From a virus, in the IMG/VR virus record IMGVR_UViG_3300030430_001482, positions 1-27,730 of that record: DNA of 27,730 bases; one strand, 5' to 3'. Positions 21,968 through 26,933 of this stretch are shown here, piece after piece (positions within the stretch are counted from its first letter, which is position 1; every line of letters begins with the position of its first letter). The notes beneath the pieces are model-generated. The model saw only the letters and a list, made by a program, of their open reading frames with translations, had not been told where the DNA came from and ran no database searches. The position numbers and the translations under genes are program-made.

Positions 21968-22008
21968 AAAATAAAAAACCCCCCTACCGATAAAAACCGA
22001 TAGGGGGG
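21968..22008 (-). terminator. Intrinsic terminator after the peptidase operon
   Basis: Read on the minus strand, CCCCCCTA pairs with TAGGGGGG across a 14-nt middle (with two further inner pairs), giving a very GC-rich 8-bp outer stem directly followed by TTTTTTATTTT. It lies 15 nt after the stop of the 487-aa peptidase gene. The T tract is only on the minus-strand side, so it acts leftward. It separates the four-gene operon from the primase promoter. Confidence 0.88.
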
Positions 22009-22023
22009 CAGGGGAAGGAAGTA

Positions 22024-23487
22024 TTAGTATTCCCAATAGCCTGAGTGATAAGGTGAACCTAATCCATAGGAGTCAAGTTCAACTCTCTTAGTTGTTTCTT
22101 TCTCAGCCTCAACAATCAACTCAGCTATCTGTTGCATAGTAAGATTGTCTTTGACGATAGTGTACTTAACAAAGTCTGCTTTCTGTTTATCACTCATATG
22201 CTCAGGCAGACCTTCTTCAGGGTCATAGCCATAGAACTTATCATCAAGCAGATGATTGCACTTGTCTATCGTAGACTGGTTCATTCGCTCTGAAGACGAG
22301 AGAGAGCTCCCTGCTGAAACCAAAGACCTCGTACTCTTGTTCGAGGAATGTGCTTTGAAAAACGAGCCTTGCCTCGCCCCATAGTAACCCGAACGACGAA
22401 AGGGGGACACCTCCTCTTTGGGGTCTCTGACCACTGGTAAGTCGTCCCACGTTATCTTCAACAAAGCAGGTATCAGAACATCTCTAAACCATATCAAGTC
22501 AAAGTGCTCACGACTTGAATGTTGATTCTTGTAACTGACAGAGACATTAGTACACTCAGCTATTAGCTTGGTGTAGTTTGCAGAGTCAGTAAATGAACCA
22601 CCAGTGTTCGGAGCCATTTGTTGTTTAGGTGGCAACAAAGGATTTAGCTTTGCAGCTAGACTATTTGCAAAAGCATCTGAACAACAGCGACCACCAGCTT
22701 GATGAGTGATGATGTGTCCATACTCATATCTGTCGAAAGCAATACAATAGTTCATGCCTTTGACAACCTCAGGTGTCTGTTCAGATATGTGGCTCGAGCC
22801 GATACCACCACACTCTTCGCCAGTATGGAATACATACAAACCATCTGTGCCATTCATGATTAGTCTGCACATGATGTAGCAACCAAGTTTGTCATCTGCA
22901 CCGAGTACACTTGATACTGGCTTAACTGATGTCCTACTGGTAACAGATATGTCTGTTTTTACCCAATCATCAAAGTCATTATCTGAGCCATAGACTGATT
23001 TGGTTTTGCCCTTGCCCATAAGAATGTAGTTCTGAAACTTGAAGCCTTTATCTTCAGTCAAGTCAGCAATCTCATTCTTGGTCATGACTTTGTCTTTGTA
23101 CACATATTCATGCACATCTTTATCATACGAGGCATATACATAACCCTCATCAGTGATACGTAAGTCAGTCTTGTCTACTGGCACTCTGCTTTGCACAGTG
23201 TCCATGTGCGAACTGAACATAACTTTAGATTTCTTATAGTCCCCTACTTTTACGATAAGATTACCTTTGACATCAATGTGTGCCTTGTAACCTTTCTTTT
23301 TCTTAGTGCCTTTGGCAAGTGCTTCGAGTATGATATCACTTATCAGTTTCTCTTTGCCATGAGGCGATACTGTTGTCAGTAAATCATAGAGCAGATTATC
23401 CATCTGTTTACCACGAGTTACTTTGGTCATTGTTGCGACCTCAGGTTCTTGAAGCTTTGTGCTCCAGTCATAGTTATATAAAGACAT
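22024..23487 (-). CDS. M20/M28/M42-like zinc metallopeptidase with C-terminal extension
   Basis: A 487-aa protein with every ligand of a two-metal aminopeptidase. H94 and D96 lie in FSSHMDT, D198 in LGADDKLG, E224/E225 in HTGEECGG (general base and ligand), D252 in IAFDRYEYG, and H323 in NQHSSREHF. The spacing and GADDK-x-G resemble peptidase T and other M20/M42 exopeptidases, which trim amino acids from short peptides in the cytoplasm. Residues about 350-415 are a Ser/Arg-rich linker, and about 430-470 a helical charged domain absent from simple aminopeptidases. There is no signal peptide. ATG 23487 has AAGGAG 8 nt upstream and overlaps the previous stop (TAATG). The substrate is unknown. 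Confidence 0.85.
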   Translation of the reverse strand: MSLYNYDWSTKLQEPEVATMTKVTRGKQMDNLLYDLLTTVSPHGKEKLISDIILEALAKGTKKKKGYKAHIDVKGNLIVKVGDYKKSKVMFSSHMDTVQSRVPVDKTDLRITDEGYVYASYDKDVHEYVYKDKVMTKNEIADLTEDKGFKFQNYILMGKGKTKSVYGSDNDFDDWVKTDISVTSRTSVKPVSSVLGADDKLGCYIMCRLIMNGTDGLYVFHTGEECGGIGSSHISEQTPEVVKGMNYCIAFDRYEYGHIITHQAGGRCCSDAFANSLAAKLNPLLPPKQQMAPNTGGSFTDSANYTKLIAECTNVSVSYKNQHSSREHFDLIWFRDVLIPALLKITWDDLPVVRDPKEEVSPFRRSGYYGARQGSFFKAHSSNKSTRSLVSAGSSLSSSERMNQSTIDKCNHLLDDKFYGYDPEEGLPEHMSDKQKADFVKYTIVKDNLTMQQIAELIVEAEKETTKRVELDSYGLGSPYHSGYWEY

Positions 23488-25550
23488 TATAAAGTCTCCT
23501 TCTTTGGTTGGTTAATTTTATTATAGTACTCTTCAAAAGACGCACATATTGTTACGCCTTCAGCAGGTAGAGCATGTTGAAGAACTCTTGTTTTGCTACT
23601 TCTTTCTAAGTTCATGAAATCAAAATATTGATTCGTAAACGAGAACTCTACTCTTTCACTTGAGTGTCCGTTAGAGCTGTCTATCTTGACAAACTTGCTC
23701 TTATTCTCAAGCACAGCTTTTGTCAGACCATTGTCTCTGTAAATACTTAGACGTTTATGTTCGCCATGTATTTTAAGAAACACCATGCCAACACCACCAC
23801 CTGGCAGTACCTCAGCATAGTTGCCTGACCTTCTTGTGTAAGCCTCAGGGTAGCAAACTTGATGTCGTTGTCTACCACTACTGCTTACGATTCTTTTACC
23901 AGTGATGGGGTGTACCATCCCATGATAATGTAGAATACTTGTAGTCCTAAAGCCCCAGCCCTGTTGAGTTGCCCACACACTTCGCATGATGGGAAACTCT
24001 ACGTCAGCCCAAGGATGCCAGTAAATAAACACACCCTCACGAGATTCGATAGCTGCGTTTAGATTACTGAATATGGTTGGCTCCCAAAGACAATCCATAT
24101 TTACTTTAGGGTCAAAAGCATATTGTCGCCACTCACAGTTATCACTGGTCTGCCACCTCACATAGTTGGCATCTGATGCACAATCAGAGGAGCAGAATAG
24201 TGCACCATCAGGGGCTCGTATTGGAGAGTCTTCATCATAAACTTCATTATCACAATAATGACAACTCCTTTGACTGCCATACTCATACACATGACCACCA
24301 TTAGTAGTTGCTAGGTTAGGACTAGCCCAGCCTCTGCCCTCAGGTTTATCATTACTAGAAGTAAGCAAACACTTGTTGACTCCGTCTTTCACTCGTATCC
24401 ACATAAAATTTGCAGGCATAAAGTCAAAGTATGGAATCGGACAAGAGTCCTTGCTATTGTACTTACTGAGTGGTATGTCAAACTCTACATCTTTACCTCC
24501 ACGAAGTTGCCGAAGTAAAGTATTTTCCTCAGCACGTTCAATACCCAAGTTTTTCAACTCTTGCTGAAGTTTACGTCTGTAAAGTTCACGACTCGAGTAC
24601 AACCTTGTGTAATACCATTTCTTATCAGTTTCATTAAAATAAGCAATAGTACGAGCAAGAACTGTATCGGCACGTTTAACATAGAAGCCCGTAGTTTTAG
24701 GACAATAGTGGTACCAGTCAACTGGTTCATGTGGTCTAGTAACATAAAACCCATGAGTGCTGTCCATGCAAGAGCCAGGAGTGTCAGGACTTTTCTTGAC
24801 ATACATATCTCGCATATCTTGTAAAGTTTTAGTTTCACAAAACTCCATCGGTTTATATGTGTCCATTATCTTCTGTGCAAGATTGTCAATAGTCTTAGGC
24901 TCAATAAGCAACTCATCAATCAACACATACCTAGCCAATATACGAGTCAAAGACATCACACGTCTGCCATTCAAACGTCTGCGACCTCGTGCAAAGGGCA
25001 ACCATGACTGACTCCTATGTTCACACTTCAAGTCTATCTCAAGCTGACTAGCAAACCCAATCGTATGCTTTGGAGTCCAAGGGTTCTCACTAGCCATGTT
25101 TGTTTGACTGATATTGCCTGAACTGCCGTATCTATTGCTTTGTTTAACTATTGGATACGACAGTGCTAAGTTTACAAAAGCAAGACAGTTCAATGAGTCT
25201 TCATCTTTTGAATATCTCTTAGCTTCTTCGTGTGCCCACATGACAGGGTGAGTAATCCTAATGTTTATAGGATGCCACGAGTTGAGACCATGCATTCCTC
25301 GCCATGCACTTTCGATTTCTTTTACAAAATCTTGTGTAGGCTTTGCAAGGATACGAATCTTACGAGCAGCAGATATCACAAGAGGGTGAACATCCATAGA
25401 CACTTTTGAAAAGTAATTGCTGTTCAGTTTATTGTCCTTAGCAAATTTAAGAAGAAAATTATTCATTTGATTTGCTATCTCATTCATATGCTTAGGAGTT
25501 GATATCATTGTCCCACGGCTAGTATGGTTCTTAAGTGAGTAAGGCATCAT
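23487..25550 (-). CDS. Large 'SCM' phage protein with zinc-finger-like cluster, function unknown
   Basis: A 687-aa protein with a strong GGAGG site just before ATG 25550 and a 4-nt overlap with the preceding gene. Residues 258-320 contain PGSCM (S260, C261, M262), RPHEPVDWY, then ADTVLARTIAYFNE and KKWYYTRLY. This is an arrangement I associate with large uncharacterised phage proteins (S-C-M, then H-P and A-R-x motifs). Residues 430-457 hold C430-x2-C433 and C453-x3-C457, probably a zinc-binding treble-clef-like site. The C-terminal 180 residues are beta-rich with several His (HYHGMVHP). There are no transmembrane segments and no nuclease, kinase or ATPase motifs. Function cannot be assigned. 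Confidence 0.85.
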   Translation of the reverse strand: MMPYSLKNHTSRGTMISTPKHMNEIANQMNNFLLKFAKDNKLNSNYFSKVSMDVHPLVISAARKIRILAKPTQDFVKEIESAWRGMHGLNSWHPINIRITHPVMWAHEEAKRYSKDEDSLNCLAFVNLALSYPIVKQSNRYGSSGNISQTNMASENPWTPKHTIGFASQLEIDLKCEHRSQSWLPFARGRRRLNGRRVMSLTRILARYVLIDELLIEPKTIDNLAQKIMDTYKPMEFCETKTLQDMRDMYVKKSPDTPGSCMDSTHGFYVTRPHEPVDWYHYCPKTTGFYVKRADTVLARTIAYFNETDKKWYYTRLYSSRELYRRKLQQELKNLGIERAEENTLLRQLRGGKDVEFDIPLSKYNSKDSCPIPYFDFMPANFMWIRVKDGVNKCLLTSSNDKPEGRGWASPNLATTNGGHVYEYGSQRSCHYCDNEVYDEDSPIRAPDGALFCSSDCASDANYVRWQTSDNCEWRQYAFDPKVNMDCLWEPTIFSNLNAAIESREGVFIYWHPWADVEFPIMRSVWATQQGWGFRTTSILHYHGMVHPITGKRIVSSSGRQRHQVCYPEAYTRRSGNYAEVLPGGGVGMVFLKIHGEHKRLSIYRDNGLTKAVLENKSKFVKIDSSNGHSSERVEFSFTNQYFDFMNLERSSKTRVLQHALPAEGVTICASFEEYYNKINQPKKETL

Positions 25551-26134
25551 TCACCTCCTTCATAAATGTTAACACCAACAGTGCCACGTATGGCTGACAT
25601 TGTGCTCTCATGCATACTGCTCAAGGCACACCACTTAGTTTTGTCAATCGAGAAGTTCTTAGTGAGTTTCAAGAGTAACCTATTCTCAGAGACAGGATAA
25701 TGTGAGCTGTTCCTAGCAGATGTCTCGCCAAGCACAAGATAAATGTGAGGGTAGTCCTGTTCGTCAAAATCATTTTTGAATGACACAGCAGTGTGAGCAT
25801 TCTTGATTGATGACAAAGGAACAACCTCAGGCACTTTCTGTAAAGTCACAGTGAAGTTGTAGTAACCTACAATCTCAACCTCGTTACTCATACGTGGACT
25901 TGTGTCTGGCGTTGAAGTGAATGTCATTGGCGTTGACGTGGTGCTTGACTTGGCATATTTATCAAACTTGAGTGAATACATAATTGAGTCAAACTTATCT
26001 AAGTGGGCATACATATAGCCCTCAGAGTTGGCAGTTGATTTGTATTTAAATACATGACCAACTGGTACATCTCTACGTGGGATTATCCTACCCAGTGTGA
26101 CTGGAGTCACATCTATACTACATCCATGAAACAT
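25547..26134 (-). CDS. Unknown protein of the peptidase operon (195 aa)
   Basis: ATG 26134 follows AAAGGA at about 6 nt spacing and overlaps the end of the upstream gene by 17 nt. The protein looks beta-rich: an N-terminal part (VTLGRIIPRRDVPVGHVFKY) that could be a small barrel, a Ser/Thr-rich loop at about 65-80 (SSTTSTPMTFTSTPDTS), a second strand-rich part (EIVGYYNFTVTL), and a conserved-looking end. There is no catalytic motif and no membrane segment. It is directly coupled to the 687-aa gene (ATGA). No family was recognised. Confidence 0.75.
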   Translation of the reverse strand: MFHGCSIDVTPVTLGRIIPRRDVPVGHVFKYKSTANSEGYMYAHLDKFDSIMYSLKFDKYAKSSTTSTPMTFTSTPDTSPRMSNEVEIVGYYNFTVTLQKVPEVVPLSSIKNAHTAVSFKNDFDEQDYPHIYLVLGETSARNSSHYPVSENRLLLKLTKNFSIDKTKWCALSSMHESTMSAIRGTVGVNIYEGGE

Positions 26135-26543
26135 AGCGATTCCTTTCTATTGGTAATACTTCTGTGAAGTTTCTGTTGAAGTTCATATCCTTGATACGCT
26201 GAAGAGCAAAAGAGGTATAGGCTAAACCAGCCTCTTGTCTTTCACTTGAAGCGTAACCAAGAGAGGGTTGCCACTCTTTGGCTAGATTATTGATGATATA
26301 AGTCTGATGTTTACTCATGGCATCAATATCTTCGCCAGTGGCTAGTTTGAGTTCATACTTGTGACACTTGAGAATCAAGTCTTTAGTGACTCGATAATAT
26401 CCGTCAGCGTGTGCAAAAGTATGAACAACATACTTTCTGTTGGGCGAGTCGTAGCCAACGACTTTGCCCAAGAACTTGATGTAGTCGGTACGAGTTTTGT
26501 AATCGACTACAACAATGTCTTCGTCATTAAAAGCTCTAGGCAT
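26118..26543 (-). CDS. First gene of the peptidase operon, unknown (141 aa)
   Basis: The open frame extends upstream into the promoter, but ATG 26543 carries a strong AAAGGGGAAA site and follows the promoter at 26578-26606, so it is the likely start. The first 60 residues look beta-rich with a basic, SH3-like character (DEDIVVVDYKT, DYIKFLGKVVGYD, RKYVVHTF); the rest is helical. A basic small-barrel start could bind nucleic acid or protein, but this is speculation. There is no Cys. The gene opens the four-gene unit. Confidence 0.75.
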   Translation of the reverse strand: MPRAFNDEDIVVVDYKTRTDYIKFLGKVVGYDSPNRKYVVHTFAHADGYYRVTKDLILKCHKYELKLATGEDIDAMSKHQTYIINNLAKEWQPSLGYASSERQEAGLAYTSFALQRIKDMNFNRNFTEVLPIERNRYVSWM

Positions 26544-26577
26544 TGCTTTCCCCTTTCTGTTATTTTTGATTTTATTA

Positions 26578-26606
26578 ATATTAACAAATTGCACATGGTT
26601 GTGCAA
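26578..26606 (-). promoter_or_regulatory. Promoter of the four-gene peptidase operon
   Basis: On the minus strand TTGCAC (-35) and TAATAT (-10) are separated by exactly 17 nt, and the 141-aa gene starts 35 nt further on with a strong ribosome site. The same two hexamers with the same 17-nt spacing, extended to GTTTGCACAA and TTTGTTAATAT, occur 327 nt upstream at 26905-26933. Repetition in two short intergenic gaps is the main evidence; the -35 alone is a modest match to the sigma70 consensus. Confidence 0.6.
26589..26606. repeat. Perfect inverted repeat over the -35 box (possible operator)
   Basis: TTGCACA and TGTGCAA form a perfect 7-bp palindromic arm pair around a 4-nt loop. It lies 10 nt after the stop of the zinc-ribbon gene and covers the -35 hexamer of the next promoter. 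It could be a protein-binding operator or a weak terminator hairpin, since only TTTGTT follows on the minus strand. The second promoter copy has TTGCACA but lacks the other arm. Confidence 0.55.
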
Positions 26607-26615
26607 ACGAATGAC

Positions 26616-26864
26616 TTACTTGCCGTTTAAAGCCTCAGACAAGTTGAAGTCAAAGTTCTTAGGATTACAAGTCGCATCATATATTTGCTTCTTGTTAGTC
26701 ACTGGTTGATATGCTCCCTTATGGGTAGGTACAAGCGAGTAAACAGCTTTAATACCAGAATCCATAAGAGAAGCACAATCAACGCAGTAATCAGTGAAGA
26801 ATTTTGCCACAGTCTTTCTTTCGATTGGGACGTTATCCCCACATTGTTTACATTCATAAAACAT
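26616..26864 (-). CDS. Small zinc-ribbon protein
   Basis: An 82-aa protein. The frame is open to 26933, but that would start inside the promoter; ATG 26864 has AAGGAAGGA 5 nt upstream. Residues 5-30 carry C5-x2-C8 (YECKQCGDN) and C27-x2-C30 (YCVDCASL), a four-Cys zinc ribbon of the DksA/TraR-like or general type. One further Cys lies near residue 66. The rest is basic and without motif. It has its own promoter and stands alone between two control regions, which suggests it is expressed independently. Small zinc ribbons often touch nucleic acid or RNA polymerase, but the target is unknown. Confidence 0.75.
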   Translation of the reverse strand: MFYECKQCGDNVPIERKTVAKFFTDYCVDCASLMDSGIKAVYSLVPTHKGAYQPVTNKKQIYDATCNPKNFDFNLSEALNGK

Positions 26865-26904
26865 ACGTTCCTTCCTTATTTTATGTAAATTTTGATTATT
26901 CTTT

Positions 26905-26933
26905 ATATTAACAAAAAACCCCACCTTGTGCAA
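26905..26933 (-). promoter_or_regulatory. Promoter of the zinc-ribbon gene
   Basis: TTGCAC and TAATAT are separated by 17 nt, identical in hexamers and spacing to the promoter at 26578-26606. The -35 lies in the loop and arm of the upstream terminator hairpin and the spacer contains its T tract, so terminator and promoter occupy the same bases. The zinc-ribbon ATG is 41 nt downstream of the -10. Confidence 0.6.

Follow-up and report, generated by a model that had tools for sequence, protein, structure and literature searches.

The operon and its genomic setting

The window analysed here, a whole virus record of 27,730 nucleotides (IMG/VR record IMGVR_UViG_3300030430_001482), contains in its early region four ORFs on the minus strand that overlap by 17 nt (p141/p195), 4 nt (p195/p687) and 1 nt (p687/peptidase) and lie between a promoter motif and an intrinsic terminator. 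The features are the following:

26578..26606, minus strand: promoter motif TTGCAC-N17-TAATAT, two exact copies in the window, recurring in relatives
26118..26543, minus strand: p141, 141 aa, ORF conserved in five relatives
25547..26134, minus strand: p195, 195 aa, ORF conserved in five relatives
23487..25550, minus strand: p687, SCM protein, ORF aligned by hhalign to the merged SCM profile
22024..23487, minus strand: pep487, two-metal metallopeptidase, with phrog_4191 and PF05343 matches and the metal residues
21968..22009, minus strand: intrinsic terminator, 14 pairs, stem 22009-21978, T tail

An earlier note, made from the letters alone, had described these overlaps together with a strong terminator, and both were borne out by the ORF check and by a terminator scan, in which the hairpin was the top match; it is kept in three relatives (L002-L004), with a fold of -30 to -34 kcal/mol. 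The promoter claimed in the same note was likewise borne out as a motif. It is a weak sigma-70 match that a generic promoter scan did not pick up, but the motif TTGCAC-N17-TAATAT occurs in two exact copies in the 27.7-kb window (26578-26606 and 26905-26933) against 0.08 expected, a number reached by one of 100 shuffled sequences, and L002 and L003 have it unchanged at the corresponding places, L004 in altered form; the more distant L015/L020 carry TGCTATAAT, an extended -10, at the promoter's position. The second copy sits before the zinc-finger gene that precedes the operon (26616-26867), whose product, a small Cys4 protein, weakly resembles DksA/TraR zinc fingers. Within the operon promoter, the 5' portion (26589-26606) forms a palindrome, TTGCAC..GTGCAA, whose arms are constant and whose loop changes in L003 and L004; it could be either an operator or the terminator of the upstream gene. 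Between the zinc-finger gene and the operon, a gene of 98-100 aa is present in L003 (8637-8933), L004 (6857-7153) and L020 (5634-5936) and absent from the window (26544-26615) and from L015, so that this otherwise conserved site has recently lost or gained a gene.

Five related IMG/VR contigs keep the gene order, and the four genes do travel together. L002, L003 (a 52-kb contig) and L004 carry all four complete and in the window's order. The order is the same in L015, whose peptidase extends to the limit of the sequence retrieved, and in L020/L021, where the contig end truncates the peptidase. Searches seeded by alignments of near-identical sequences alone returned the same contigs again. Identity to the five relatives ranges from 63 to 94% for p141 and from 61 to 99% for p195, and both proteins were found only in the lineage of the window. 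In Pfam, PHROGs, NCBIfam and 50,697 phage records p141 had no convincing family match and nothing useful was returned, and p195 had no family or phage match. The N-terminal half of p141 may form a small SH3/KOW-like barrel, a candidate judged by eye, and the two proteins could act as lineage-specific partners, for example as targeting or regulatory subunits. None of the four window proteins matched the known anti-phage defence proteins of PADLOC, and membership in known defence families was rejected on that basis.

The phage is a marine one and was typed as an HMO-2011-type podovirus. Its family A polymerase (PolA) carries a DnaJ-type zinc insert (E 1e-4, below the Pfam gathering score) and is 47% identical to that of Pelagibacter phage HTVC033P and 40% to that of HMO-2011, with a range of 38-47% across HMO-2011-type podoviruses (HTVC033P, CRP phages, HMO-2011); the replication genes run primase-helicase-polymerase, as in these phages. 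The three marks of membership (DnaJ-insert PolA, polymerase similarity and gene order) were thus all found in the window phage. It differs from four HMO-2011-type isolates at the site of the operon, where the fetched stretches of those isolates contain other genes (integrase, thymidylate synthase, small ORFs) and no homologue of the peptidase-SCM pair.

The operon lies beside the replication genes, its terminator preceding the primase gene. This early location bears on the idea that we are dealing with ordinary virion, lysis or maturation genes, for which the presence of a peptidase is the one argument. Profile searches against Pfam, PHROGs and NCBIfam gave no match to structural or lysis families, and the peptidase is of the aminopeptidase/deacylase type and not of the prohead-protease type. 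We therefore rejected a virion or lysis role, which appears highly improbable.

The SCM superfamily and its pairing with the peptidase

p687 comprises an SCM core (about aa 240-380), a Cys4 zinc-ribbon-like cluster (aa 430-457) and lineage-specific N-terminal and C-terminal regions. Identity among relatives falls to 56%, and the four cysteines (C430, C433, C453 and C457), which give a weak L24e-like match (E 0.066), are invariant in six relatives. Neither Pfam, PHROGs, NCBIfam nor PADLOC assigned it a function, and direct searches of the 50,697 phage records gave nothing useful. Profile-profile comparison was needed, since a single-HMM search with the p687 relatives did not recover the SCM proteins of Autographiviridae. 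By hhalign, p687 matched the Autographiviridae SCM set (Prob 83, E 8.9e-6) and a merged SCM set of 58 (Prob 91.8, E 7.4e-7), whereas reversed, shuffled and unrelated control profiles gave E>=0.04. Direct comparison with the jumbo-phage SCM set alone was weak, and the link from p687 to the jumbo proteins runs via those of Autographiviridae.

The superfamily, which is defined in this analysis, has the signature Y..SCM..Y..R..RxY..PYxD. In a joint alignment of 27 proteins from three groups, residues Y250, S260, C261, M262, Y280, R300, R316, Y318, P373, Y374 and D376 of p687 are common to 26-27 of the 27; the aligner favours such residue matches, and the control comparison consequently carries most weight. 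Judged from these profiles, p687 is a divergent member of the SCM superfamily, at the edge of detectable similarity, and the S-C-M region and Cys4 cluster noticed at the outset are both confirmed by conservation.

Relatives of the phrog_4191 peptidase occur in 364 phage records, and an SCM gene adjoins this peptidase in hundreds of Autographiviridae (KP34, Peat1, Vibrio KF1, Pasto). Immediately 5' of the peptidase gene, Pasto, KF1, Peat1, KpV48, Minorna, Ep4, M83, KP34, Buco and Bradyrhizobium phage BDU-MI-1 encode a large 'hypothetical protein'. These upstream proteins, that of BDU-MI-1 included, contain the S-C-M motif or are matched by the SCM profile; several of the pairs show the same 1-nt overlap as the window. 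Counts of records by host genus nearly coincide for the peptidase (Klebsiella 230, Pectobacterium 51, Vibrio 42, Escherichia 10, Shigella 4, Dickeya 3) and for the SCM protein (231, 51, 42, 10, 4 and 3, respectively). Among IMG/VR loci found through the SCM protein, the peptidase was next to it in 18 of 18, with the SCM gene immediately 5'.

The pair is also present in very large genomes. In LR745206 the peptidase gene comes first and the SCM gene is adjacent, and the 735-kb LR756501 (L142, 1-6095) has the arrangement peptidase-SCM-SCM-SCM-peptidase, with three tandem SCM genes between two flanking peptidases. A scan of IMG/VR with the jumbo form returned 207 relatives, often several per contig; a peptidase lay within 3 kb in 16 of 83 jumbo SCM loci, counts that are approximate because in a few cases one contig is represented by more than one locus, and in nine contigs it was adjacent on the same strand. 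In the majority of the jumbo loci no peptidase lies within 3 kb of the SCM gene. Three uncultured phage contigs (L126, L134, L136) contain arrays of four to five SCM ORFs in 5-7 kb, and one jumbo-phage SCM protein (L059, 4900-5350) has at its C-terminal end an extended series of DnaJ-like CxxCxGxG zinc repeats.

The pair is therefore common to phages of widely differing kinds, with genomes of 43 kb (podoviruses) up to 735 kb (megaphages), and p687 and its peptidase are the local version of this much wider gene pair. The earlier note had treated the four genes as a single self-contained unit. They do form one conserved operon, but as p141 and p195 are restricted to the lineage and the pair occurs in hundreds of phages, the relevant unit is the pair and not the four genes.

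The peptidase site and the predicted fold of the SCM core

The peptidase pep487 matches phrog_4191 with E 1.5e-61 and the M42-type aminopeptidase family PF05343 just above the cut-off. The two-metal pattern of M42/M28/M20 metallopeptidases (HxD, D, EE, D, H) is complete, as had been noted, and its seven metal and catalytic residues (H94, D96, D198, E224, E225, D252 and H323) are all invariant in 13 phage homologues. An insertion at about aa 100-185 and a C-terminal tail are lacking in most relatives; the tail, of about 120 aa, and the insertion have no counterpart in the peptidases of Autographiviridae.

A salvage or detoxifying aminopeptidase, supplying amino acids or clearing peptides with the SCM gene merely co-transcribed, would fit the M42-type match, the weak deacylase-like matches such as that to [LysW]-lysine hydrolase, and the phages of Thermus, Lactococcus and Bacillus (L030, L140, L141) in which the peptidase occurs with no SCM gene nearby. 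Nevertheless, phages that are unrelated, and that differ in genome size and in the orientation of the genes, have retained the pair, and salvage leaves the linkage to one particular partner unexplained. We regard this alternative as quite unlikely; the peptide salvage suggested in the earlier note found no specific support. Membership in the [LysW] pathway, or identity with [LysW]-lysine hydrolase itself, was rejected, the score being 35 bits against the 363 needed for the NCBIfam equivalog cut-off.

AlphaFold2 modelling of p687 with four close relatives reached a pLDDT of 29, and that of a peptidase-linked jumbo member (L056, 49 sequences) a pLDDT of 91.6 and a pTM of 0.85. All 50 PDB matches listed for the latter model were annotated as, or stood among, GNAT acyltransferases or N-myristoyltransferases, some being named only as protein of unknown function or integron cassette protein; the best E was 1.7e-3, with TM 0.43-0.50 by target length over mostly 120-135 columns. 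In a viral structure library, uncharacterised phage proteins came first (E down to 1e-26), a protein of Caulobacter phage Lullwater being among the matches, followed by GNATs. The Q/RxxGxG/A acetyl-CoA loop of GNATs (beta4-alpha3) is absent from the SCM family, whose consensus there is DRIYTxxDSDxxLFK, and the Pfam GNAT families gave no match to the SCM protein. A GNAT-like fold of the SCM core, extended to p687 by its relation to the jumbo model, is accordingly a prediction of moderate strength, and since the loop is absent the use of acetyl-CoA is unsupported.

The missing loop could also suggest a role without catalysis, which we consider a serious rival, albeit an unlikely one on balance. 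The SCM protein would then be a substrate receptor or adaptor, GNAT-like in fold, which either delivers a particular peptide or protein of the host or its defences to the peptidase or itself blocks a defence protein. Variable N-terminal and C-terminal domains and zinc ribbons around a constant core are consistent with such a role, as are the tandem diverged SCM copies of jumbo phages (up to five ORFs in one 4.9-kb locus and three in LR756501), which would be expected for diversified binding, and the greater variability of p687 (79% identity to L004, the peptidase having 91%). On the other hand, near-invariant Cys, Arg, Tyr and Asp residues, kept in order over very large divergence, suggest chemistry beyond binding.

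A possible two-enzyme module and known systems

The reading that we favour, although we would stop somewhat short of calling it probable, is that a GNAT-fold transferase and an amide hydrolase act as one modification or processing unit on a host or defence factor. The operon would be this lineage's version of a widespread two-gene phage module. Its first member would be the SCM protein, predicted to resemble GNAT-type acyltransferases and bearing the near-invariant Y, S-C-M, Y, R, RxY and PYxD; given the absence of the usual acetyl-CoA loop, it would probably rely on a different acyl or aminoacyl donor, or on a different chemistry. The second would be the peptidase, an M42/M28/M20-type amide hydrolase with two metals. 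Early in infection the SCM protein might bind or modify a target, and the linked hydrolase might then remove, trim or process an amide bond on that same target. Two steps on one substrate are suggested by the near-invariant Cys, Arg, Tyr and Asp together with the hydrolase linkage over great divergence, and early action may be inferred from the place by the replication genes and the operon's own promoter. The target could be a host or a phage molecule; probably the module acts on the host, and does so early in infection. A more specific version, which we put forward as possible but doubtful, is an undescribed two-enzyme system in which a host or defence protein receives an unusual group from the loop-less GNAT-fold transferase, the dedicated hydrolase removes or processes that group, and p141 and p195 serve as lineage-specific targeting subunits.

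The same fold and genomic neighbourhood could point towards nucleic acids. The substrate of the SCM protein might be nucleic acid, much as adenine is acylated by Mom, the GNAT of phage Mu, or else a factor of translation or replication close to the replisome; the peptidase would then process either the donor or the product. The predicted GNAT-like fold, the position next to primase, helicase and polymerase in both HMO-type and Autographiviridae genomes, and the Mom-type GNATs reported in jumbo phages (PMC7824862) would be in line with this idea. Against it, no DNA-modification partner genes were seen next to the pair, and the zinc ribbon is present in some SCM members only; we judge it more unlikely still than salvage.

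Modification or cleavage of a host factor, the earlier note having proposed cleavage, has become the better reading, although we still infer it, because the SCM core has a GNAT-like predicted fold and GNAT-triggered cleavage of RNA polymerase has been published. In phiKMV-like phages, the alpha subunit of host RNA polymerase is cleaved through the action of the GNAT Rac, probably by host proteases (PMC7552054), and for a range of phage GNATs host proteins or DNA have been proposed as substrates (PMC7824862). In the literature searched we found no description of the pair, of the SCM superfamily or of its fold, in agreement with the absence of a described phage pathway remarked on earlier; what is already known is the peptidase family and many of the SCM homologues, listed in databases as 'peptidase' and 'hypothetical protein'. 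Hundreds of sequenced phages, many of them infecting Klebsiella, Pectobacterium and Vibrio, carry the pair under these two names. Seen as one module, with its predicted fold and its few near-invariant residues, the pair has a role that can be tested directly in cultivated phages, KP34 among them. If the pair modifies or cleaves a host factor, very different phages would share a step of takeover or counter-defence.

Among known systems, the closest is the KP34 gp10-gp11 type pair of Autographiviridae (phrog_6980/phrog_13313 'unknown' plus phrog_4191 'peptidase'), in which an SCM core with a CxxC zinc ribbon likewise lies directly upstream of the peptidase with a 1-nt overlap, just before primase and helicase. 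The window differs in the N-terminal and C-terminal regions of its SCM protein, whose similarity is at edge level, in the extra insertion and tail of its peptidase, and in p141/p195, the promoter and the terminator, which are particular to its lineage. With the M42/M28/M20 metallopeptidases and [LysW]-lysine hydrolase, pep487 shares the full two-metal site and weak family matches, but it falls below the equivalog cut-offs. The predicted SCM core resembles the GNAT superfamily (RimI-type and aminoglycoside acetyltransferases, N-myristoyltransferase) in fold, whereas the Q/RxxGxG loop and a Pfam GNAT match are lacking, the C-terminal half is different, and S-C-M and PYxD are nearly invariant in SCM proteins. 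Rac, finally, is a candidate for a system that works alike, an autographivirus GNAT-fold protein tied to proteolysis in host takeover; its acetyl-CoA pocket is intact and it uses host proteases (PMC7552054), whereas the SCM family lacks the pocket loop and has a phage peptidase next door, and we set the two side by side as precedent and not as homologues.
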